The notes beneath the pieces were generated by a model. It made no database searches. It was given only the letters and a program-made list of their open reading frames with translations, and was not told where the DNA came from. A stretch of 34,994 bases of DNA from Betaproteobacteria bacterium (GTDB taxonomy: Bacteria > Pseudomonadota > Gammaproteobacteria > Burkholderiales > SG8-39). The stretch covers positions 1-34,994 of the forward strand of contig SCTX01000051.1 in assembly GCA_004298385.1 (NCBI GenBank), written 5' to 3'. A program made the translations under genes and the position numbers. This document shows, one piece after another, positions 15,941 to 30,167 of the stretch (positions are counted from its first letter, which is position 1; every line of letters begins with the position of its first letter).

Positions 15941-16417
15941 ATGGCTACCAGAAAGAGCAAGCCGCGCCGCCGTTTCGTCGTGCGCAATTCTGGCATACAT
16001 GGCAAAGGCGTATTCGCCACCACCCGTATCCCGTCCGGCACCCGTCTGATCGAGTACAAGGGCGAGCGCCTGACAGAGGCGCAGACGGACAAGCGCTACG
16101 CGAAAGACGACAACCCGCATACGTTCCTGTTTGCGCTCGACGACGGCATGGTGATCGATGCCACCAGCGGGGGCAACAGCGCCCGCTGGATCAACCACAG
16201 CTGCGCGCCCAATTGCGAAGCGGTGGATGATGAGGACCGCATCTACATCGAGACGCTGCGCGCGATCCGCCCGGGCGAGGAGCTCTGCTACGACTACCGC
16301 ATCGAACTCGAGGAAAGGCATACGCCGGAACTGAAGCGGCTATATCAGTGCCGCTGCGGCGCGCGTCGTTGCAAGGGCACCATACTTAACGTCAAGAAGA
16401 AGAAAAAGAAAAGCTGA
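15941..16417 (+). CDS. SET-domain protein-lysine methyltransferase
   Basis: The 158-residue protein consists almost entirely of a SET domain. Motifs seen are GIHGKGVFA (18-26, SAM site), NHSCAPN (85-91, the knotted active-site segment), GEELCYDY with catalytic Tyr117/Tyr119 (112-119), and a post-SET zinc cluster CxCG (137-140) plus Cys144. Such enzymes transfer methyl from SAM to lysine side chains. In bacteria the substrates are mostly unknown. The chain ends in six consecutive lysines and a serine, which could bind nucleic acid or be a self-methylation site (inference). The gene is divergent from the AidB-like gene across 140 bp and stands alone on this strand. Confidence 0.92.
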   Translation: MATRKSKPRRRFVVRNSGIHGKGVFATTRIPSGTRLIEYKGERLTEAQTDKRYAKDDNPHTFLFALDDGMVIDATSGGNSARWINHSCAPNCEAVDDEDRIYIETLRAIRPGEELCYDYRIELEERHTPELKRLYQCRCGARRCKGTILNVKKKKKKS

Positions 16418-18511: not shown

Positions 18512-19123
18512 TTATTGGGCTACGCTTCCCCACAATTGCTTCAGCCTGGCGTCGCGGCCGCAGCCGGTGCGGTAGTACGCGTAGCGCAGCGGGTTCTTGA
18601 GGTAATAGTCCTGATGATATTCTTCGGCCGGCCAGAATTCGGTGGCGAGGGTAATTTCGGTGACAACTGGATCCTTGAACGGTTTGGATTTTTCCAGTGC
18701 CGCCCGCGATTCTTCGGCCAGCCGCTTTTGCTCCTGATCCAGGTAGAAAATGCCGCTGCGGTACTGCGTGCCGGCGTCGCAGAACTGGCGGTTCTTCACC
18801 GTGGGATCGATATTGCGCCAGAATACTTCCAGTAGCTTTTGGTAGTTGATTTTCTTCGGATCGTAGACCACCTGCACCGCCTCGGTATGTCCGGTCGTCC
18901 CGGCCGAGACCTCTTCGTAGGTCGGATTTTTCTTTTGCCCGCCGACATAGCCAGACGTGGTGGAAATGACGCCGGGGAGTTTGTCGAACGGCGGCTCCAT
19001 GCACCAGAAGCAGCCGCCGGCGAAAATCGCCCTTGCCTGAGCGGCGGGCTGGGCCTGGGCCGCCGAGAGCAAGGAAAGCCAAAGCGCGCAGCTCAGCAGC
19101 AGGAATTTGGGAAAGGGTCTCAT
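18512..19123 (-). CDS. msrA: Peptide methionine sulfoxide reductase MsrA, exported
   Basis: The 203-residue MsrA has a signal peptide (MRPFPKFLLLSCALWLSLL, cleavage predicted after AQA near residue 24). The catalytic Cys38 is in the motif GGCFWCME. Further family signatures are GYVGGQKKNPTYEEV, TGHTEAVQVVYDP, DPTVKNRQFCDAGTQYRS and a C-terminal EYHQDYY. It reduces methionine-S-sulfoxide in periplasmic proteins; the electron donor is not encoded nearby. ATG 19123 was chosen because it begins the signal peptide; the longer in-frame reading to 19183 puts polar residues before it. A second MsrA gene lies head-to-head 121 bp away. Confidence 0.93.
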   Translation of the reverse strand: MRPFPKFLLLSCALWLSLLSAAQAQPAAQARAIFAGGCFWCMEPPFDKLPGVISTTSGYVGGQKKNPTYEEVSAGTTGHTEAVQVVYDPKKINYQKLLEVFWRNIDPTVKNRQFCDAGTQYRSGIFYLDQEQKRLAEESRAALEKSKPFKDPVVTEITLATEFWPAEEYHQDYYLKNPLRYAYYRTGCGRDARLKQLWGSVAQ

Positions 19124-19244
19124 TTTCTCGAACCTGGTGATCAGTTCCGGCGACGTCAGGCGAAGATTCGATATCATATGCAAGTTTTCTGCGTCCCGCC
19201 AGACTAAACTGGATGTCGGGCATCCCGCAAGAAAGGTGAACTAC

Positions 19245-19796
19245 ATGGCGCAAGCACAAAACGGAAAGGAAATCGCCACCCTGGGCGGCGGTTGCTTCTG
19301 GTGCCTGGAAGCGGTATTCGACGAGCTAAAGGGCGTGGAGGCGGTCGAATCCGGCTATATGGGCGGACACTTGCAGGACCCCACCTACGCGGACGTGTGC
19401 GGCGGCGACAGCGGACACGCCGAAGTGGTGCAGATCAGCTTCGATCCGGCCGTGGTCGGCTTTCGCGAAATTCTCGAAGTGTTTTTCCTCATCCACGACC
19501 CGACCACGCAGAACCGACAGGGCAACGATACCGGGCCGCAGTATCGCTCGGCGATCTTCTATCACTCGCCGGAGCAGAACGCGACGGCCGAGCAGGTGAT
19601 AGCCAAGCTCGAGGCCGCCGGCCTATGGGACCGACCCATCGTCACCGAGGTCACGGCCGCGAGCCGGTTCTATGCCGCCGAGGGCGAGCACCAGGAGTAC
19701 TACCAGCGCAATCCCCACCAAGCTTATTGCATGATGGTAGTGCAGCCCAAGGTGGCAAAATTCCGCAAGCATTTCATCGGCAAGCTGAAGAAATAA
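19245..19796 (+). CDS. msrA: Peptide methionine sulfoxide reductase MsrA, cytosolic
   Basis: The 183-residue MsrA lacks a signal peptide. The catalytic Cys17 is in LGGGCFWCLE, and the family motifs GYMGGHLQDPTYADVC, SGHAEVVQISFDP, DPTTQNRQGNDTGPQYRS and EYYQRNPHQAYC follow. It repairs methionine-S-sulfoxide in cytosolic proteins. ATG 19245 has an AAGGTGA ribosome-binding site. The upstream in-frame extension to 19107 overlaps the divergent MsrA gene and is not conserved. The chain differs substantially from its head-to-head neighbour, so this is not a recent duplication. Opposite localisation suggests division of labour between compartments. Confidence 0.94.
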   Translation: MAQAQNGKEIATLGGGCFWCLEAVFDELKGVEAVESGYMGGHLQDPTYADVCGGDSGHAEVVQISFDPAVVGFREILEVFFLIHDPTTQNRQGNDTGPQYRSAIFYHSPEQNATAEQVIAKLEAAGLWDRPIVTEVTAASRFYAAEGEHQEYYQRNPHQAYCMMVVQPKVAKFRKHFIGKLKK

Positions 19797-23352: not shown

Positions 23353-26046
23353 CTAGACGAGCGCCTTGGTGACGATCTCGGCCACGTCCTTCGACAGTCC
23401 CTGCGCCTCGCGTATGCGCAGGAGTGCGGCGCTCGCGTGCCGCTTGCGCCCGGCGTCGAACTTGCGCCACCGGTCGAAGGCGCGCGCCATGCGCGCGGCG
23501 ACCTGCGGATTAAAGGCGTCGATGGCGATTACTTGTTCGGCGAGAAACTGATAGCCGCCGCCGTCTGCGGCGTGAAAGCGCACGTGGTTGCCGCAGAAGC
23601 TGCGGATCAGCGCGTACACCTTGTTCGGGTTGTGAATGTCGAATGCCGGGTGCGCGAGCAGCCTGCGCACCTCGCCCAGCGTGCCGGGCAGGCGCGAGCC
23701 CGCCTGTACCGCCAGCCACTTGTCCACCACCAGCGGCTCGTTTTTCCATTTCGCGTAGAAGGCATCCAGCGCCTGAGCGCGCTCGGCGCAGTCGCAATTG
23801 GCGAGTGCGACCAGCGCGGCCATGGTGTCGGTCATGTTGTCCGCGCGCTCGAACTGCCGCAATGCGAGCGCGCGTGCATCTGCACCATCGAGTTCCATCA
23901 GGTAGCCGAGGCACAGATTCCTGAGCGCACGTTTGCCCGCTGCTTGCGCATCCGGGCTGTAAGGGCCGGGCACGGCGTGCGCGTGGTAGGCGGTGAGCAG
24001 TTCGCTCTTCAAGGCTTGCGCCAAATCGCGGCGCACAGCGTTGCGAACCGCGTGTATGGCGTCCGGATCGACCTCGTCCAACTGCTCGGCGATGTAGGTT
24101 TCGGAGGGCAACGCCAGGGCCTCCGCGCCGAAGGCGGGATCTCGCGGCGCGTCCGCCAGCACCCGTGCAAAGGCCTCGATAAAGGCCTGCGGCGTCTTCG
24201 CGCGGCCGGCCGCATTGTCCTCACGCGAAGGCTGCACGCGGCGCGCTTCGATGCCGCGCAGGATCAGCGCGAGCGCGAGCCGCTGCCCCGCCTCCCAGCG
24301 GTTGAAGGCGTTCGCATCGTGCGCCATCAGATGGGTGAGCTCGGCTTCGCTGTATTCGTATTTGACCGTCACCGGCGCGGAGAAATTGCGCAGCAGCGAG
24401 GGCACCGGCGGCGCCGGCACGCCGACGAACACAAAACTTTCCTGCGGCTGCTTGAGCGAAAGCACGCGCGTAATTTCCCCTGCCCGCTCTCCGGGGGCGG
24501 CTGGTTCAACCGGCGCTTCGCCCGCCAGCATCAGCGGCAAGTCCTTGCCGTCCGGCCCGACCAGCCCCAGCGCGAACGGGATGTGGAAGGGCAGTTTGGT
24601 CTCCTGCCCCGGCGTGGGCGGGCAGGATTGCCTCAGCGTGAGGGCATAGCGCCCGGTGGCCGCATCGTACTTGCCCTCCACCTGCACCACCGGCGTGCCC
24701 GCCTGTTCGTACCAGCGGCGGAACTGGGCGAGGTCGATGCCGCTCGCATCCTGCATCGCCTGCACGAAATCGTCGGTGGTCACCGCCTGGCCGTCGTGGC
24801 GCTCGAAATACAAATCCATGCCGGCGCGGAACGCCTTCGGCCCGAGCAGCGTGTGCTGCATGCGCACCACTTCCGCGCCCTTCTCGTACACCGTCATGGT
24901 GTAGAAATTGCGGATCTCCATGTAGGCGGCCGGGCGCACCGGGTGCGCCATCGGACCCGCGTCCTCGGGGAACTGCGCCGCGCGCAGCCCGCGCACTTCG
25001 CCGATGCGCTGCACCACGCGCGAGTACCTGTCGGCGCCGTACTCCTGGTCGCGGAACACGGTCAGGCCTTCCTTCAGCGACAGTTGAAACCAGTCGCGGC
25101 AGGTGACGCGGTCGCCGGTCCAATTGTGGAAATACTCGTGCGCGACGACGCGGTCGATGTTCTGGTAGTCGATGTCGGTGGCGGTGTCGGGCCGGGCGAG
25201 CACATACTTGGTATTGAAAATGTTGAGGCCCTTGTTCTCCATCGCGCCGGAGTTGAAATCGCCCACGGCCACGATCATGTAGCCGTCCAGGTCCAGCTCC
25301 AGACCGAACACCTCCTCGTCCCATTTCATCGCGCTCTTCAAGCAGCGCATGGCGAAGCCGCACTGGTCGAGCTTGCCCGGTTCGACATACAGCGCGAGTC
25401 TGGCGTCGCGCCCGGAGCGGGTGACGAAGCTGTCGTCGAGCTTTTCCAGCTTCGCCGCCACCATGGCGAATAGATAGGATGGCTTGGGGAACGGGTCTTC
25501 CCATTTCGCCCAGTGCCGCCCGCCCGCCTCCTCGCCCGCGGCGACCAGGTTGCCGTTCGAGAGCAGCAGCGGATAGCGCTCGCGCTCGGCGTGGATGGTG
25601 TTGGTGTAGCGCGCCATCACGTCCGGCCGGTCGATGAACCAGGTGATGCGGCGAAAGCCCTCGGCCTCGCATTGCGTGAAAAAGCCGTTGGTCGATGCGT
25701 ATAGGCCCTCGAGCCTGGTGTTTTTCTGCGGGCGGATGCGCGACACGGTTTCCAGCGTGAACCGCTCCGGTACCTTGTCGATGCAAAGGCTCTCCTCGCC
25801 GAGCCTGTAATCTCCCGGCGCGAGTACCCGGCCGTCCAGCGCCACCGACTCGAGTTCGATTTCATCGCCGTCGAGCACCAACGGCGCGTACGCGTCGGCG
25901 GCTTTCGGGTTTCTCGCCAGCGCCAGCGTCGCGCGCACCAGCGCATGGTCGTCGCGGATATCGACATCGAGCGCTATGGTCGAGATCAGGAACGCCGGCG
26001 GCGTGTAGTCTTTGAGGTAAATGGTCTTGGGTGCGGGTTCACGCAT
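23353..26046 (-). CDS. pepN: Aminopeptidase N (M1 family)
   Basis: The 897-residue zinc metallopeptidase removes N-terminal amino acids from peptides. Motifs are GAMEN at 267-271 (exopeptidase anchor) and HEYFH at 303-307, with the third zinc ligand Glu326 in KEG, exactly the HExxH-x18-E spacing. The N-terminal beta-saddle domain precedes these, and the large helical C-terminal domain fills residues 550-897. There is no signal peptide, so it acts in the cytosol. The length agrees with E. coli PepN (870). ATG 26046 gives MREPAPKTIYLKDY, the usual N-terminal form in proteobacteria. A long open frame on the opposite strand is only a shadow. Confidence 0.97.
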   Translation of the reverse strand: MREPAPKTIYLKDYTPPAFLISTIALDVDIRDDHALVRATLALARNPKAADAYAPLVLDGDEIELESVALDGRVLAPGDYRLGEESLCIDKVPERFTLETVSRIRPQKNTRLEGLYASTNGFFTQCEAEGFRRITWFIDRPDVMARYTNTIHAERERYPLLLSNGNLVAAGEEAGGRHWAKWEDPFPKPSYLFAMVAAKLEKLDDSFVTRSGRDARLALYVEPGKLDQCGFAMRCLKSAMKWDEEVFGLELDLDGYMIVAVGDFNSGAMENKGLNIFNTKYVLARPDTATDIDYQNIDRVVAHEYFHNWTGDRVTCRDWFQLSLKEGLTVFRDQEYGADRYSRVVQRIGEVRGLRAAQFPEDAGPMAHPVRPAAYMEIRNFYTMTVYEKGAEVVRMQHTLLGPKAFRAGMDLYFERHDGQAVTTDDFVQAMQDASGIDLAQFRRWYEQAGTPVVQVEGKYDAATGRYALTLRQSCPPTPGQETKLPFHIPFALGLVGPDGKDLPLMLAGEAPVEPAAPGERAGEITRVLSLKQPQESFVFVGVPAPPVPSLLRNFSAPVTVKYEYSEAELTHLMAHDANAFNRWEAGQRLALALILRGIEARRVQPSREDNAAGRAKTPQAFIEAFARVLADAPRDPAFGAEALALPSETYIAEQLDEVDPDAIHAVRNAVRRDLAQALKSELLTAYHAHAVPGPYSPDAQAAGKRALRNLCLGYLMELDGADARALALRQFERADNMTDTMAALVALANCDCAERAQALDAFYAKWKNEPLVVDKWLAVQAGSRLPGTLGEVRRLLAHPAFDIHNPNKVYALIRSFCGNHVRFHAADGGGYQFLAEQVIAIDAFNPQVAARMARAFDRWRKFDAGRKRHASAALLRIREAQGLSKDVAEIVTKALV

Positions 26047-26439
26047 GGGGCAGGGTACCGGGATCGGACCGGAGGAGCGCTAGTCTACCGGAAGCGCCGC
26101 CGGCTGCGCCAAAAAGAACTATAGTTTGAACAGGGCGGGATGAGCGGGGTTTTGCGTGTGTAGGTTCACTATTTCCTAAGTTACAAGGGTACCTTGGAAC
26201 TTGGCACAGTGCCGAGCAATGCGCGGGGACGGTATGACATAGATCAGAAGAATCGCGGCGGCCAGAGCGAAGCAGAATACTACGAGCGAAATCGCCGGAT
26301 CGAATGCGAGTGGCTGAGTTGACCGCTCGGGCGATGCAAGGCCAACGAAGAGTGCGCATACCAGGTCGCGGCGGTGTTGGAACCATTCCAACGCCGCCGC
26401 TCGAATTTGAAGCGCTACTGCTGTTTGAGGATCGGGCTC
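26047..26439. other. Intergenic region with a 15-bp hairpin
   Basis: This 393-bp gap between pepN and the collagen-like gene has no convincing gene. A 71-codon minus-strand frame at 26176-26391 has one hydrophobic stretch but no ribosome-binding site or family likeness. A hairpin with 15-bp arms (26368-26382 and 26386-26400, one G-T pair, 3-nt loop) follows the collagen-like gene on its transcript. It could end or protect that mRNA, although no T-run is present. Confidence 0.6.
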
Positions 26440-27204
26440 CTACCCTGGTGATCCGGAAGGACCCTGCGGGGCAGGATCCCCCTTCTCACCTCGCGGCCCA
26501 GTCGGGCCTTGAGCCCCAGACTCTCCCTTCACGCCGGGCGGTCCCGAAGGACCTTGCGGACCTGGGTCGCCTTTGGGACCCGGATCTCCCTTCGGCCCAG
26601 TCGAGCCTGAAGCACCGGGATCGCCCTTCACGCCGGGCGGTCCCGAAGGACCTTGCGGACCTGGGTCGCCTTTGGGACCCGGATCTCCCTTCGGCCCAGT
26701 CGAGCCTGAAGCACCTGGATCGCCCTTCGCCCCGGGAGGTCCCGAAGGGCCTTGCGCTCCTGGTTCACCCTTGGGTCCTGCCTGACCTTGCGGCCCGGCG
26801 TCTCCCCTCTCCCCTTTCGGACCAATGGGTCCGGCCGGTCCTTGATCCCCCTGGTCACCCTTGGGTCCGGAAGGCCCTTGTGGACCGGCGTCGCCCTTCT
26901 CGCCCTTGGGGCCCGGGGCGCCTGCGAACCCTTGAGGCCCCGTCGCGCCCGTGGCGCCATCCTCGCCCTTGATACCTCTAGGCCCGGCCGGGCCCTGAGG
27001 TCCAGGTTTTTGTTCGTTCGCCGAGAGTCGACGGGTGACATCATTCAGACGATTTTCAAGATCCTCAAGTCGCTTGGCCAGCGAAGGTTTTCGCGTCGCC
27101 GGTTTCTTCCGGGGTGCCGCCGCCTGATTCTTGCGCGGCGCCGCCTTGGTTCTCCTAGCGGAGGGCTGCCGCTTCACGGACTTCTTGATCGCTTTTTTCG
27201 CCAT
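26440..27204 (-). CDS. Collagen-like protein with basic histone-like N-terminus
   Basis: This 254-residue protein has three parts. Residues 1-44 are Lys/Arg/Ala/Pro-rich ([18 protein letters not shown] and more), resembling histone-H1-like or AlgP-type tails. Residues 43-65 form a short coiled coil ([21 protein letters not shown]), a likely trimerisation segment. From about 67 to the end, almost uninterrupted Gly-X-Y triplets ([19 protein letters not shown] and similar) form a collagen domain rich in GPKGD and GEKGD. No signal peptide, anchor or sorting motif is seen, so secretion is not supported. Internal DNA repeats show recent expansion. Collagen-like proteins normally act in surface attachment or spores, and the basic head here instead suggests a nucleic-acid-facing intracellular role (inference). 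Confidence 0.85.
26530..26727 (-). repeat. 99-bp tandem duplication inside the collagen gene
   Basis: Segment 26530-26628 is repeated almost without change at 26629-26727. The period is 99 bp, or 11 Gly-X-Y triplets, so the reading frame and triplet phase are kept. More diverged copies follow on the 5' side of the gene. Near identity implies recent expansion and likely length variation between strains. Confidence 0.9.
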
Positions 27205-27283
27205 CTGCGCCTCACTGTTTCATTGCTCATGAAAATGACTTCCAGTGTTTATCTTACCCCCTTTGTGGCTCGGTGCGTATTTC

Positions 27284-27299
27284 AAGTGTGGTAACACTT
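27284..27299. promoter_or_regulatory. Palindrome AAGTGTGGTAACACTT (possible operator)
   Basis: Perfect 6-bp arms surround a 4-nt centre, 80 bp upstream of the collagen-like gene start and 240 bp upstream of the Bug receptor. Symmetry suggests a protein-binding site. No cognate regulator gene is adjacent. Confidence 0.4.
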
Positions 27300-27343
27300 C
27301 CCTCTCGTACTATGCGACCGCCCCGCGCCTCTCGGGATTCGCG

Positions 27344-27405
27344 CCATTTGGACGTAAGCGGCGCTGCAATCAGCCCATTTTGACCTAACCGGCATTGCAA
27401 TCGGC
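27344..27405. repeat. 31-bp tandem repeat, two diverged copies
   Basis: Copies at 27344-27374 and 27375-27405 are adjacent and identical at 25 of 31 positions (CCATTTKGACSTAASCGG...). The second copy begins CCATTTTGACC, like the repeated TTTTGACC motifs at the ends of IS21-family elements. It may be a relic of such an end, which is an inference. Confidence 0.65.
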
Positions 27406-27538
27406 CGGGCGCAGGCGCAATATGCTTCCCGGCGCAGTGTTCGGCAGCGCTGAATCAGCGCCAAACCGTCGCCACCGGCCAGAGGCGCGAAAAGAGCAGG
27501 ATTGAATTTTCCATCGTTTTACCGAAGGAGGAGACACG

Positions 27539-28522
27539 ATGAAACCCGTCACACTGATCGGCTCGCTGGTTGTCGCACTCGGACTCGCGCTGGCGCCCTG
27601 CATCGCCAGCGCGCAGCAGGCCGCCTGGCCATCTAAACCTGTCCGTTTCGTGGTTCCCTATCCGCCCGGCTCGAGCGGCGACCTGATAGCACGGAAACTC
27701 GCGCCGTATCTGTCCAAAGCACTGGGCGGCCAGTTCGTGGTCGACAATCGTCCCGGCGCCAACGGCAGCATCGCGATGGAAAACGTCGCCCGCTCGGCAC
27801 CCGACGGCTACAGCTTCGTGTTTGGCACCGACATCCAGTTCGCCATCGCGCCGGTACTGTACAAGCTGCCCTATGACACCGAAAAGGATTTTGAGCCGGT
27901 GGCGCTGGTCACCGTCATCGAAATTTTGCTGCTCGCGCATCCGTCGGTGGCGGCGAACAACCTGCAGGAACTGGTGAAACTCGCGAAAGCTCAGCCGGGC
28001 AAGATCAATTATGCGTCCACCGGTATCGGCAGCACCCACCAGCTAGCCGTCGAGTTGCTCAAGCAGCGCGGCGGCTTCGATATCACCCATGTGCCCTACA
28101 AGGGAACCGGCCAGGCGCTCCCGGATCTGGTCGCCGGGCAGGTGCAGGTAATGTTCGCCGGCATTACGCAGTCTATGCAGTACCTCAATTCCGGTAGGCT
28201 CAAGGCGCTGGCGGTGGCGTCGCAAAAACGGCAGCCCCTGCTGCCGGACCTGCCGACCGTCGCCGAATCCGGTTTTCCCGGTTACGAAGCGAACGCTTAC
28301 TGGGCCATTTGGGCGCCGGCGGGCACGCCTGCCGCAATCACGCAGAAGCTCTATGCCGAATTACGCAAACAACTGGATCTGCCCGAAGTTCGCGACTGGT
28401 TCGAGAAATCGGGACTCGCCCCGAGTGCAGCCGGCCCGGAGGAACTGGCCGCGCGCGTCCGCGCGGATCGGGCACGCTGGACCCGGGTGGTGTCGGAGGC
28501 GAATATCAAGGTGGACCAGTAG
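27539..28522 (+). CDS. Bug-family (TctC-like) periplasmic solute-binding protein
   Basis: The 327-residue protein starts with a signal peptide (MKPVTLIGSLVVALGLALA, cleavage after ASA near 24). The Bug-family opening WPSKPVRFVVPYPPGSSGDLIAR follows, with VVDNRPGANGSIAMENVARSAPDGYSF and THVPYKGTGQALPDLVAGQVQVMFAG. These periplasmic receptors capture carboxylates or other acids for tripartite tricarboxylate transporters. Betaproteobacteria carry many orphan copies without adjacent TctA/TctB genes, as here. ATG 27539 has a strong AAGGAGGAG ribosome-binding site. The ligand cannot be told. Confidence 0.93.
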   Translation: MKPVTLIGSLVVALGLALAPCIASAQQAAWPSKPVRFVVPYPPGSSGDLIARKLAPYLSKALGGQFVVDNRPGANGSIAMENVARSAPDGYSFVFGTDIQFAIAPVLYKLPYDTEKDFEPVALVTVIEILLLAHPSVAANNLQELVKLAKAQPGKINYASTGIGSTHQLAVELLKQRGGFDITHVPYKGTGQALPDLVAGQVQVMFAGITQSMQYLNSGRLKALAVASQKRQPLLPDLPTVAESGFPGYEANAYWAIWAPAGTPAAITQKLYAELRKQLDLPEVRDWFEKSGLAPSAAGPEELAARVRADRARWTRVVSEANIKVDQ

Positions 28523-28591
28523 CGACGCGGGATATCGCTTCACTGCGGATACGCCTGTATTACTACGGGGGCGCTGCGTCGATGCGCCGGA

Positions 28592-28849
28592 CTATTTTTT
28601 CCAGCTCGTCATGTCGTCGACCTTGACATCGTACTTCGCCATTTTCGCGACGGCGTCTTTCTGAGCGTCGACCTCGATGCTGCGAAACGCCTCGGCCAAT
28701 TTGTAGCAGAACTTGGCCAGGTCCACGGGGTTGGGCTTGGTCTGCTCGGTTGTGAGCATGACGCGGCCGACCAATTCGACATAAATCCGTGCCGCGAGTT
28801 CTCTTACCGATGTGGACTCAGGGCCGGGAGGGGTAGCAGGGGCACTCAT
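28592..28849 (-). CDS. Small conserved-looking hypothetical protein
   Basis: The 85-residue soluble protein has a Pro-rich start (SAPATPPGPEST), two predicted helices (VRELAARIYVELVGRVML and PVDLAKFCYKLAEAFRSIE) and an acidic/lysine C-terminal part ending MTSWKK. I do not recognise the family. It is convergent with the Bug receptor gene and has a GAAGGCGA ribosome-binding site before ATG 28849. Coding-like composition and the good site support a real gene. Confidence 0.6.
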   Translation of the reverse strand: MSAPATPPGPESTSVRELAARIYVELVGRVMLTTEQTKPNPVDLAKFCYKLAEAFRSIEVDAQKDAVAKMAKYDVKVDDMTSWKK

Positions 28850-28877
28850 GGGGTTCGCCTTCGGGGCAGCCGAAAAC

Positions 28878-28900
28878 GCGCATTATGCCGCATAAGGCGC
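28878..28900. promoter_or_regulatory. Near-perfect palindrome upstream of the 85-residue ORF
   Basis: GCGCATTATGC (28878-28888) and GCATAAGGCGC (28890-28900) are inverted copies with one mismatch around a single base. The palindrome is 29 bp upstream of the start at 28849, where an operator would fit. It could also be a hairpin at the end of the MaoC-like gene. Confidence 0.45.
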
Positions 28901-28960
28901 CGGACGGGCTCTCCGGTCGCGACGGTCGGGCCGGAATACTCGGCCATGGTCACGGTCGCG

Positions 28961-29479
28961 CTAGTCCGGCCGAACGGCGGCCGGGTAAGCCAGACCGACG
29001 GTATCAGTATATTCCGTTGAACCGCTCGGGCGCCGCCGGCGCAGCAACTGGATCATCACCATGGTGATGACCGGCCGATCGTCCTGGCTGATCACCTCGT
29101 AGCGAATGCGGCAAACGCCGGCTTCGGGACGCGATCCGGAAGGCCGCCATTCCATCATGGTGAAGCGGCAGCGAAGCACGTCGCCTGGTCGCACCGGCTC
29201 AAGCCAGCGCAACTCGTCGATGCCGATGCCGGCTATCGCACAGTCGTCGAACCTGCCCGACTTGAGAGCCAGTGCCCAAGCGAGCGCCGCCGTCTGGAAT
29301 CCGCCGCAGATGAGACCGCCGAAGATAGAGTTCTTGGCGGCCTCCGGATCCAGATGAAAGTACTGAGGATCGTAGCGCTGTGCGAACTCGATAGCTTCCT
29401 TCTCGGTCACCGCGTGCGGCGGGCTTTCGTGGGTCACGCCCGGTTCGAAATCCTCAAGGAATATGCGCCCTCTTGTCAT
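28961..29479 (-). CDS. MaoC-like (R)-hydratase/hot-dog protein
   Basis: The 172-residue single hot-dog protein of the MaoC family starts MTRGRIFLEDFEPG. It has the hydratase motif in the form AQRYDPQYFHLDPEAAK, where Asp and His occupy the catalytic positions, followed by FGGLICGGFQTAAL. Typical members hydrate trans-2-enoyl-CoA to (R)-3-hydroxyacyl-CoA. ATG 29479 was chosen so the chain begins just before the conserved RIFLEDF; an upstream ATG at 29485 is equally possible, and longer starts add a non-conserved Ala-rich stretch. It lies 97 bp downstream of the isomerase-like gene on the same strand. Confidence 0.88.
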   Translation of the reverse strand: MTRGRIFLEDFEPGVTHESPPHAVTEKEAIEFAQRYDPQYFHLDPEAAKNSIFGGLICGGFQTAALAWALALKSGRFDDCAIAGIGIDELRWLEPVRPGDVLRCRFTMMEWRPSGSRPEAGVCRIRYEVISQDDRPVITMVMIQLLRRRRPSGSTEYTDTVGLAYPAAVRPD

Positions 29480-29576
29480 ATACATGAAGATTAGCACGCT
29501 ATTTGTCGCCGCGGCGGCTATTGCTGCATTTGAATTTGTCGGAGTACCGACGAGTAGGTGCTCCCGCAACAATCCG

Positions 29577-30167
29577 CTATCTGGTTAACGCCTCGGCGAC
29601 GAAATCGAGACGGTCCTGTCCCCAGAACATTTCGCCGCCGACAAAAAAAGTCGGTGCGCCGAATACCCCGCGCGCCACCGCCTCTTCGGTGTCCTTCTTG
29701 AGCTGCTCCTTTACCGCCGGATCGTTCACCAACGATTGGAAGGCGTCGGCATCGAACCCGGCCTGCCGCAGCACTGCGGCGAGTTCCTGCTGTTCGCCCA
29801 GATTGCGCGGCTCCACCCACATGGCGTGAAAAATCGCCGCCACATATTTGTGAAAGTTCGGCCCGCGCATCTGCATGCCGAGCGCGCCGCGCATGAGAAC
29901 CAGCGTGTTGATCGGGAAATGAGGATTGCGCTTGAACACCGCACCGTAGCGCGCCGCCCAGCGCTGCATGTCCTCGTGCATCCATTTGCTTTTCGCCCGA
30001 TTCCCGGCCGGTCTGTTATGGCCGGTTGCCTTGAACACGCCGCCGAGCAGCAGCGGCCGCCAGACGATTTGCGCGGCGTGCGCGGCCGCGATCCCGGGCA
30101 ACGCCTTGTACGCCAGGTAGGAGTACGGACTGCCGAAATCGAAGTAGAACTCGACTTGTTTTTCCAT
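29577..30167 (-). CDS. 2-hydroxychromene-2-carboxylate isomerase/DsbA-like protein
   Basis: The 196-residue protein has a thioredoxin-like DsbA fold of the kappa glutathione-transferase/HCCA-isomerase group. The opening EFYFDFGSPYSYLAY has Ser in the active-site position where DsbA has the CxxC cysteine. Later segments are PLLLGGVFKATGHN, FKRNPHFPINT and GVFGAPTFFVGGEMFWGQDRL. Relatives use glutathione in naphthalene and aromatic degradation or act as kappa-class transferases. ATG 30167 has a GAGGAAA ribosome-binding site. No naphthalene genes are nearby, so the substrate is open. The MFS gene is 196 bp upstream. Confidence 0.9.
   Translation of the reverse strand: MEKQVEFYFDFGSPYSYLAYKALPGIAAAHAAQIVWRPLLLGGVFKATGHNRPAGNRAKSKWMHEDMQRWAARYGAVFKRNPHFPINTLVLMRGALGMQMRGPNFHKYVAAIFHAMWVEPRNLGEQQELAAVLRQAGFDADAFQSLVNDPAVKEQLKKDTEEAVARGVFGAPTFFVGGEMFWGQDRLDFVAEALTR

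Follow-up and report, generated by a model that had tools for sequence, protein, structure and literature searches.

Contig SCTX01000051.1 of a Betaproteobacteria bacterium (assembly GCA_004298385.1) carries, within a stretch of 34,994 nucleotides (the window), a gene for a protein of three parts: a short and strongly basic N-terminal head, a coiled coil of three heptads, and a rod of Gly-X-Y triplets (Table 1). By its sequence the product is a bacterial collagen-like protein. An original prediction, made from the letters of the window, had described a histone-like head, a short coil and a collagen rod in a chain devoid of an export signal, and all of these are borne out within the open reading frame (ORF), with a head of 44 residues, a coil of three heptads, and a rod of 187 residues. 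The observation thus stands, while the interpretation attached to it, an intracellular scaffold with a nucleic acid-binding head, finds support in part.

Table 1. Features at the collagen-like gene, in window positions
Feature	Positions	Strand	Description or basis
Collagen-like protein gene	26440..27204	minus	254 aa, ATG to TAG, complete ORF
Leader	27205..27222	minus	in-frame TGA, no start codon, GAGG 5 nt before ATG
Basic head, residues 1–44	27073..27204	minus	17 Lys + Arg, zero acidic residues (composition)
Predicted coiled coil, about residues 42–66, RLEDLE at 45–50	27007..27081	minus	heptad spacing by reading, and motif search
Gly-X-Y region, residues 68–254, single break at Ala245	26443..27003	minus	Pfam and composition
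99-bp tandem repeat, 2.8 copies, within the collagen region	26494..26775	minus	repeat search
Open frame of 87 codons directly 3′ of the TAG, same frame, strong hydrophobic stretch	26178..26439	minus	holds a 71-codon TTG-started ORF
Apparently lineage-specific segment: collagen gene and divergent TctC-type gene	26178..28585		no syntenic counterpart found in the genus; both flanks match relatives

Basic head, coiled coil and collagen rod

The head contains 11 Lys, 6 Arg, 10 Ala, and 5 Pro, corresponding to a computed isoelectric point (pI) of 12.0 and a net charge of about +16.5. Its end overlaps a series of hydrophobic residues (L42, L46, L49, L53, V56, and L60) whose 4-3-4-3-4 spacing, read from the sequence, defines the predicted coil. 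In register with these heptads the RLEDLE segment fits the pattern R-h-x-x-h-E, L46 and L49 filling its hydrophobic positions, a pattern seen in 2.2% of the sequences obtained when the same residues are shuffled. R-h-x-x-h-E is described as a mark of trimeric coils, and in the excerpted report its mutation destabilised the trimer of FapF (PMC6173795). Since the coil contains this motif, the protein is likely to form a trimer, in which three basic arms would be mounted on a rod of 53 nm.

The rod (pI 5.45, net charge −1.2) matches the Pfam family Collagen (PF01391, E 2.6e-32) in four stretches, and this is the sole Pfam family in the chain. Glycine is kept at 62 of the 63 Gly positions, Ala245 being the exception. 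The codons at these positions (GGC 18, GGT 16, GGA 14, GGG 14, plus one Ala codon) are fixed in their first two bases and nearly flat in the third. This is the pattern to be anticipated where glycine is retained at the protein level, and it suggests that selection has acted on the protein for some time. Within the tandem repeat, units 1 and 2 differ at 4 of 33 codons, three of the differences being synonymous. The rod also holds 14 KGD or KGE pairs, which help the collagen triple helix in the absence of hydroxyproline. Eight bacterial collagens, when expressed, are reported to have formed stable triple helices without hydroxyproline (excerpt of PMC4066190).

The original prediction had allowed that the true start might lie upstream together with a signal peptide. 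The in-frame TGA (27220–27222) is six codons 5′ of the ATG and no start codon intervenes, so that a hidden upstream signal peptide is excluded in this frame. Within the ORF itself no signal peptide, lipobox or membrane anchor was found, and none of the 17-residue windows N-terminal to the collagen is hydrophobic, the best of them scoring −0.84 on the Kyte-Doolittle scale. Thus the head, coil, rod, start site, and lack of an export signal within the ORF are all read directly from the sequence.

The collagen frame is favoured as the coding frame because of its Gly-X-Y pattern and Pfam match. Its codons are atypical for the window, the G+C fraction at third positions (GC3) being 0.57 in the rod and 0.63 in residues 1–67, as against 0.77–0.86 in ten window genes. 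This fits an acquisition from elsewhere and is not proof of one, since the Gly-X-Y repeat itself biases the codons of a collagen. No promoter match was found for the region of the gene, the single terminator match lies inside the gene on the opposite strand, and an Rfam scan of positions 26000–30000 returned no family at its gathering score.

Relatives of the chain and proteins of the same plan

The collagen gene occurs once in its own genome, where the sole match to the chain is the gene itself, with zero paralogs. With the own genome counted throughout, matches occur in 17 of the 98 family genomes, in 12 of 60 relatives and, at 1e-10, in 18 of 369 class genomes. Apart from the gene itself, every family match listed begins no earlier than query residue 65 and thus covers the collagen part only; several of these are small lipoprotein-like proteins with GAT repeats. 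Residues 1–77, which add a short collagen piece to the head, had matches at E 0.01 or better in 20 of 399 order genomes, the own genome again included; the other matches were weak (1.9e-4 at best), and none of the loci fetched from the order search (L021–L039) combines a basic head with collagen. Residues 1–92 found no relative in GTDB contigs and no match in plasmids. A viral scan with the head returned two loci, and another with query A2 three, all aligned only from residue 56 onward. A two-row profile matched 10 genomes out of 398 in the phylum and 3 out of 98 in the family, each count including the own genome; the other two family genomes are without a basic-headed collagen. The whole chain matched 51 plasmid records, none of which covers more than 80% of it. 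A Spiroplasma plasmid protein (H18), which among the matches listed begins at residue 3, was rejected as a counterpart, having a hydrophobic N-terminus and 6 Lys or Arg in its 44-residue head. By these sequence criteria (single copy, no head relative in the 98 family genomes, atypical codons, and a lineage-specific segment) the collagen gene is an orphan. As a separate observation, a relative from the genus (G012) contains a 753-codon collagen-like open frame (L002), whose C-terminal region by eye resembles L040 from another genus of the same family; these two apparently represent another collagen-like family in the lineage.

A closer likeness was met in plan than in letters. Residues 41–164 retrieved 49 GTDB loci, the best of which (L084), from a metagenome-assembled genome of candidate division KSB1, encodes a 217-residue protein with a basic head rich in Lys and Ala, an RVNELE coil, and collagen almost to its end. 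A second case, L261 (genome G972, of the same phylum but another class), came from the phylum matches of the two-row profile and is a 731-codon open frame with a basic start (MAKK), a long acidic repeat, an RLEVLE coil, and collagen to the end. Both share with the window protein a basic head, the absence of a hydrophobic stretch above the cut used, an R-h-x-x-h-E coil and collagen reaching, or almost reaching, the C-terminus, although in L261 the long acidic repeat separates head from coil. Aligned with the window head, the head of L084 scores 62, compared with 30.8 (standard deviation 8.6) for shuffles, of which 3 in 2000 reach 62; because L084 had been selected as the top locus out of 49, this score is not taken as homology. 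The two proteins share the plan of the window protein, their head letters being only weakly alike. The coil motif strengthens the earlier idea of a trimer.

The rarity of this plan was gauged among 132 distinct collagen-like ORFs from the fetched loci, 118 of them with a head of at least 30 residues. Excluded from this count were repeated entries, ORFs lacking a 5′ stop within their locus, and runs rich in glycine or poor in proline; starts were set at the first ATG, so that some heads (e.g., that of L206) may be over-long, and the sample is biased to viral contigs and relatives of the query. A hydrophobic stretch is missing in 95 of the 118 sampled heads, and a missing export signal is therefore not unusual in the sample. 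A net charge of +10 within a 40-residue window is reached by six heads of the 118, those of L001 (the window gene's own locus), L084, L261, L206, and two Paenibacillus ORFs of L122, to which the viral contig L134 is added at net +8. The R-h-x-x-h-E pattern falls within the 45 residues that immediately precede the collagen in 7 of the 132 ORFs. Three of the six strongly basic heads also have the motif (P = 0.02 with the query excluded, a small and post hoc comparison).

Known bacterial collagens resemble the window protein in some respects and depart from it in others. The EPclA-type proteins of E. coli prophages likewise join a trimeric coiled coil to a collagen triple helix, but as excerpted they bear phage fibre domains at the N- and C-termini (PMC3368898), in place of which the window ORF has a basic head and no C-terminal domain; no phage fibre domain was detected in it, Pfam giving Collagen alone. 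The collagen-like Bucl proteins of Burkholderia often have no predicted signal sequence, like the window protein; in the excerpted account signal sequences are predicted in 4 of 13 and, unlike here, transmembrane regions in 10 of 13 (PMC4565658). The Bcc-CLPs, also collagen-like proteins of Burkholderia, are described in excerpt with GTS repeats and a Collagen_mid domain (PMC10224339), which Pfam did not find in the window protein. Scores against the NCBIfam adhesin models fell short of their cut-offs (Scl1/SclA 112.6 of 400, Scl2/SclB 119.8 of 325, and Lcl 121.9 of 500 bits). Contrary to a premise of the original prediction, the description of bacterial collagens as usually surface or spore proteins proves too narrow, given that many are phage tail parts, that most of the sampled heads are without a hydrophobic stretch, and that signals are predicted in a minority of Bucl proteins. 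Literature searches on collagen-like proteins linked to nucleic acids or polyphosphate yielded no paper on a collagen of this kind, as judged by title and the start of the abstract. While the collagen-like kind is itself known, the architecture appears, from its sequence, to be new among bacterial collagen-like proteins.

A possible polyanion-binding trimer and its alternatives

The reading we tentatively prefer is that of a lineage-specific cytoplasmic trimer, which would bind polyanions through its basic head and use the rod as a spacer. Three chains would join via the N-terminal coil, as its heptads and the R-h-x-x-h-E motif suggest, and the coil would then nucleate the triple helix of the rod, whose length works out at about 53 nm (187 residues × 0.286 nm), with the KGD and KGE pairs helping in place of hydroxyproline. 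Three basic heads, totalling about +50, would cluster at one end of the rod, and a cluster of this charge should hold polyanions, with DNA, RNA and polyphosphate as candidates, while the near-neutral rod would serve as a spacer or form a brush on whatever polymer or granule is bound. The trimer, its cytoplasmic place, the polyanion binding, and the spacer role we infer from these features. In favour of this reading count the split in charge between head and rod, the heptads with their motif, the lack of an upstream start or a hydrophobic stretch in the ORF, the codons of the rod glycines, and the recurrence of the plan in L084 and L261.

Two proteins offer precedents by analogy. AlgP of Pseudomonas aeruginosa, which binds DNA and is found on polyphosphate granules (PMC9239181), provides one for a Lys/Pro/Ala-rich domain in such a place, and its histone H1-like stretch of this composition resembles the window head. 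Its abstract, however, presents a KPAA-rich C-terminal domain of 154 residues and names no collagen (PMC9239181), whereas the window head has 44 residues, is N-terminal, and contains no KPAA; indeed, KPAA is absent from the entire translation, as is a long C-terminal tail of the AlgP type. L1ORF1p is a trimeric coil whose function requires its basic N-terminus, and thus provides a precedent for the pairing of these two features, but as an analogy only, since it is a eukaryotic retrotransposon RNA-binding protein and its abstract mentions no collagen (PMC5940361).

Several observations weigh against this reading. The many collagens without a signal make a missing signal weak evidence for a cytoplasmic role. 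A basic head is no proof of a nucleoid role either, since the two Paenibacillus ORFs of L122, which to judge by the genus may be spore proteins, have basic heads with neither a hydrophobic stretch nor the coil motif. No ortholog was found that could show conservation of the head. Codon usage does not favour the collagen frame, for which a synonymous codon score trained on ten window genes gives −0.39 bits per codon, compared with −0.20 for the overlapping plus-strand ORF 26304–26972. Repeat units 2 and 3 differ at 6 of their first 15 codons, four of the changes altering the amino acid and two being silent. Finally, the open frame that follows the TAG includes a 19-residue stretch of mean hydropathy 2.87, resembling a membrane helix, and its codon use (−0.33 per codon, GC3 0.56) is similar to that of the collagen frame (−0.39, 0.57). 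A membrane-helix-like sequence in this place bears on the localisation of the collagen protein.

Among the alternatives, a surface or matrix protein that leaves the cell by non-classical export is unlikely, though worth weighing. Its head would bind lipopolysaccharide, capsule or extracellular DNA, and its rod would protrude as in collagen-like adhesins. Other collagen-like ORFs of the genus (L003, L005, L007, and L008) have by eye lipoprotein- or signal-like N-termini, so that the lineage probably exports such proteins, but the window ORF itself has no signal peptide, lipobox or membrane stretch, and by eye no secretion gene adjoins it among the window ORFs, few of its neighbours having been family-searched.

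It is similarly doubtful that the gene is a young or drifting orphan of little function, in which a collagen repeat became fused to a low-complexity Lys/Arg/Ala/Pro stretch after a foreign segment had been acquired. The single copy, the failure to find a head relative, the low GC3 relative to the ten window genes, and a segment unlike that of relatives would all agree with such an origin; the retention of nearly every rod glycine with a nearly flat third base, suggesting selection at the protein level, and the GAGG preceding the ATG speak against it.

A membrane-linked scaffold has a still lower probability. Here the frame after the TAG would be a separate small membrane protein (the 71-codon TTG ORF, on the same transcript), or a C-terminal anchor if the stop is read or results from an assembly error, so that the rod would stand on the inner membrane and the head on a polyanion. 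The position of this frame, adjacent and in phase, is in its favour, as are its codon use and its hydropathy: when its bases were shuffled by dinucleotides, 404 of 3000 shuffles remained open and none of the 404 was as hydrophobic. On the other hand, the TAG is present in the assembly, a search of the other 97 family genomes yielded no relative of the frame, and neither Pfam nor PHROGs has a match to it. Only its end (the last ~20 codons) resembles another place, a site on another contig of the relative G011, at 82% over 72 bases, and the 11 in-frame differences there (2, 4, and 5 at codon positions 1, 2, and 3) have no silent-site bias. The neighbourhood of that site holds by eye a toxin-like PIN ORF and no collagen. 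The frame may encode a small membrane protein, correspond to a tail of the collagen chain, whether lost or real, or have arisen by chance.

A remnant of a fibre from a phage or other mobile element is about as improbable as the membrane-linked scaffold. Phage tails often contain collagen rods, the chain has matches in 806 phage records, and its coil and collagen have them in 121 viral-contig stretches. It also matches 41 PHROGs families, with tail fibres at the top, and among the best 25 of 41 the match falls nearly always on the collagen part; the segment, too, looks lineage-specific. Against such an origin, no phage record spans 80% of the chain, the Staphylococcus phage tail fibre that among the matches listed reaches residue 1 (H1) has no basic head before its collagen (22 Lys + Arg, 31 Asp + Glu), Pfam yields Collagen only, and no phage gene was seen by eye among the neighbours, some of which were family-searched.

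If the preferred reading holds and the head binds nucleic acid or polyphosphate in the cell, collagen would be a tool for organising the bacterial cytoplasm, beyond surfaces, spores and phage tails. A bolder and rather improbable extension is a class of cytoplasmic collagens that arose more than once, in which a coil gathers histone-like heads that clamp the chromosome, RNA, or granules of polyphosphate or polyhydroxybutyrate, and a 50-nm rod spaces or cross-links the bound bodies. The window protein is short and should, in common with other bacterial collagens, do without hydroxylation, so that the idea of head binding within the cell is directly testable, with the KSB1 and G972 proteins as further test cases.

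Genomic setting and neighbouring genes

Downstream of the collagen gene and in the same direction lies pepN (Pfam M1), present in 13 of 14 genus genomes including its own. Upstream, on the opposite strand, is a gene for a TctC-type receptor, with 334 bp between the two starts. The DNA of the relative with the most similar pepN (G011, 93%) resembles the window from 26001 to 26177 (93% over 178 bases), where the similarity ends. Positions 26178–28600 had zero matches at E 0.01 in 11 fetched stretches beside the relatives' pepN (1.5 to 7.1 kb each), and the pepN neighbours in G011 are different genes from those in the window, which we take to be NfeD- and slipin-like. When the 5.3-kb pepN-side stretch of G011 was compared with the own genome, all that appeared were the 54-base flank and, on other contigs, two partial matches of 67% and 71%. 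Similarity to the genus resumes at about 28576–28592, and among the matches listed this sequence is on the same contig as pepN in G004, G013, and G012, at a distance of 4 to 10 kb. TctC-like sequences and the element preceding them are found elsewhere in the genus. The 2.4-kb segment thus looks lineage-specific within an otherwise syntenic region.

The element before the TctC-type gene is a stretch of ~145 bp (27375–27524) just 5′ of the TctC-type gene, which recurs at 72–89% identity at many sites in the own genome and in the genus; a copy on contig C176 of G011 again precedes a TctC-like sequence at similar spacing. It could serve the TctC-type receptor gene family as a common leader or regulatory element. 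Just beyond the segment, an 85-residue ORF (28592–28849, minus strand) lies in a stretch of DNA for which matches at 73–83% occur in 11 of the 13 other genomes of the genus.

Three further loci of the window deserve mention. A small SET-domain protein (15941–16417; PF00856, 1.8e-26) ends in a lysine run, and Lys-rich heads, the collagen protein's among them, would be conceivable substrates for a lysine methyltransferase. The protein encoded at 106–2433 combines two AAA ATPase domains (PF00004 in two stretches) with a CDC48 N-terminal domain (PF02359 at 44.4 bits, cut-off 35.1), a type more familiar from archaea and eukaryotes. Two divergent ORFs for peptide methionine sulfoxide reductases, each with PF01625, occupy 18512–19796, their listed starts overlapping.
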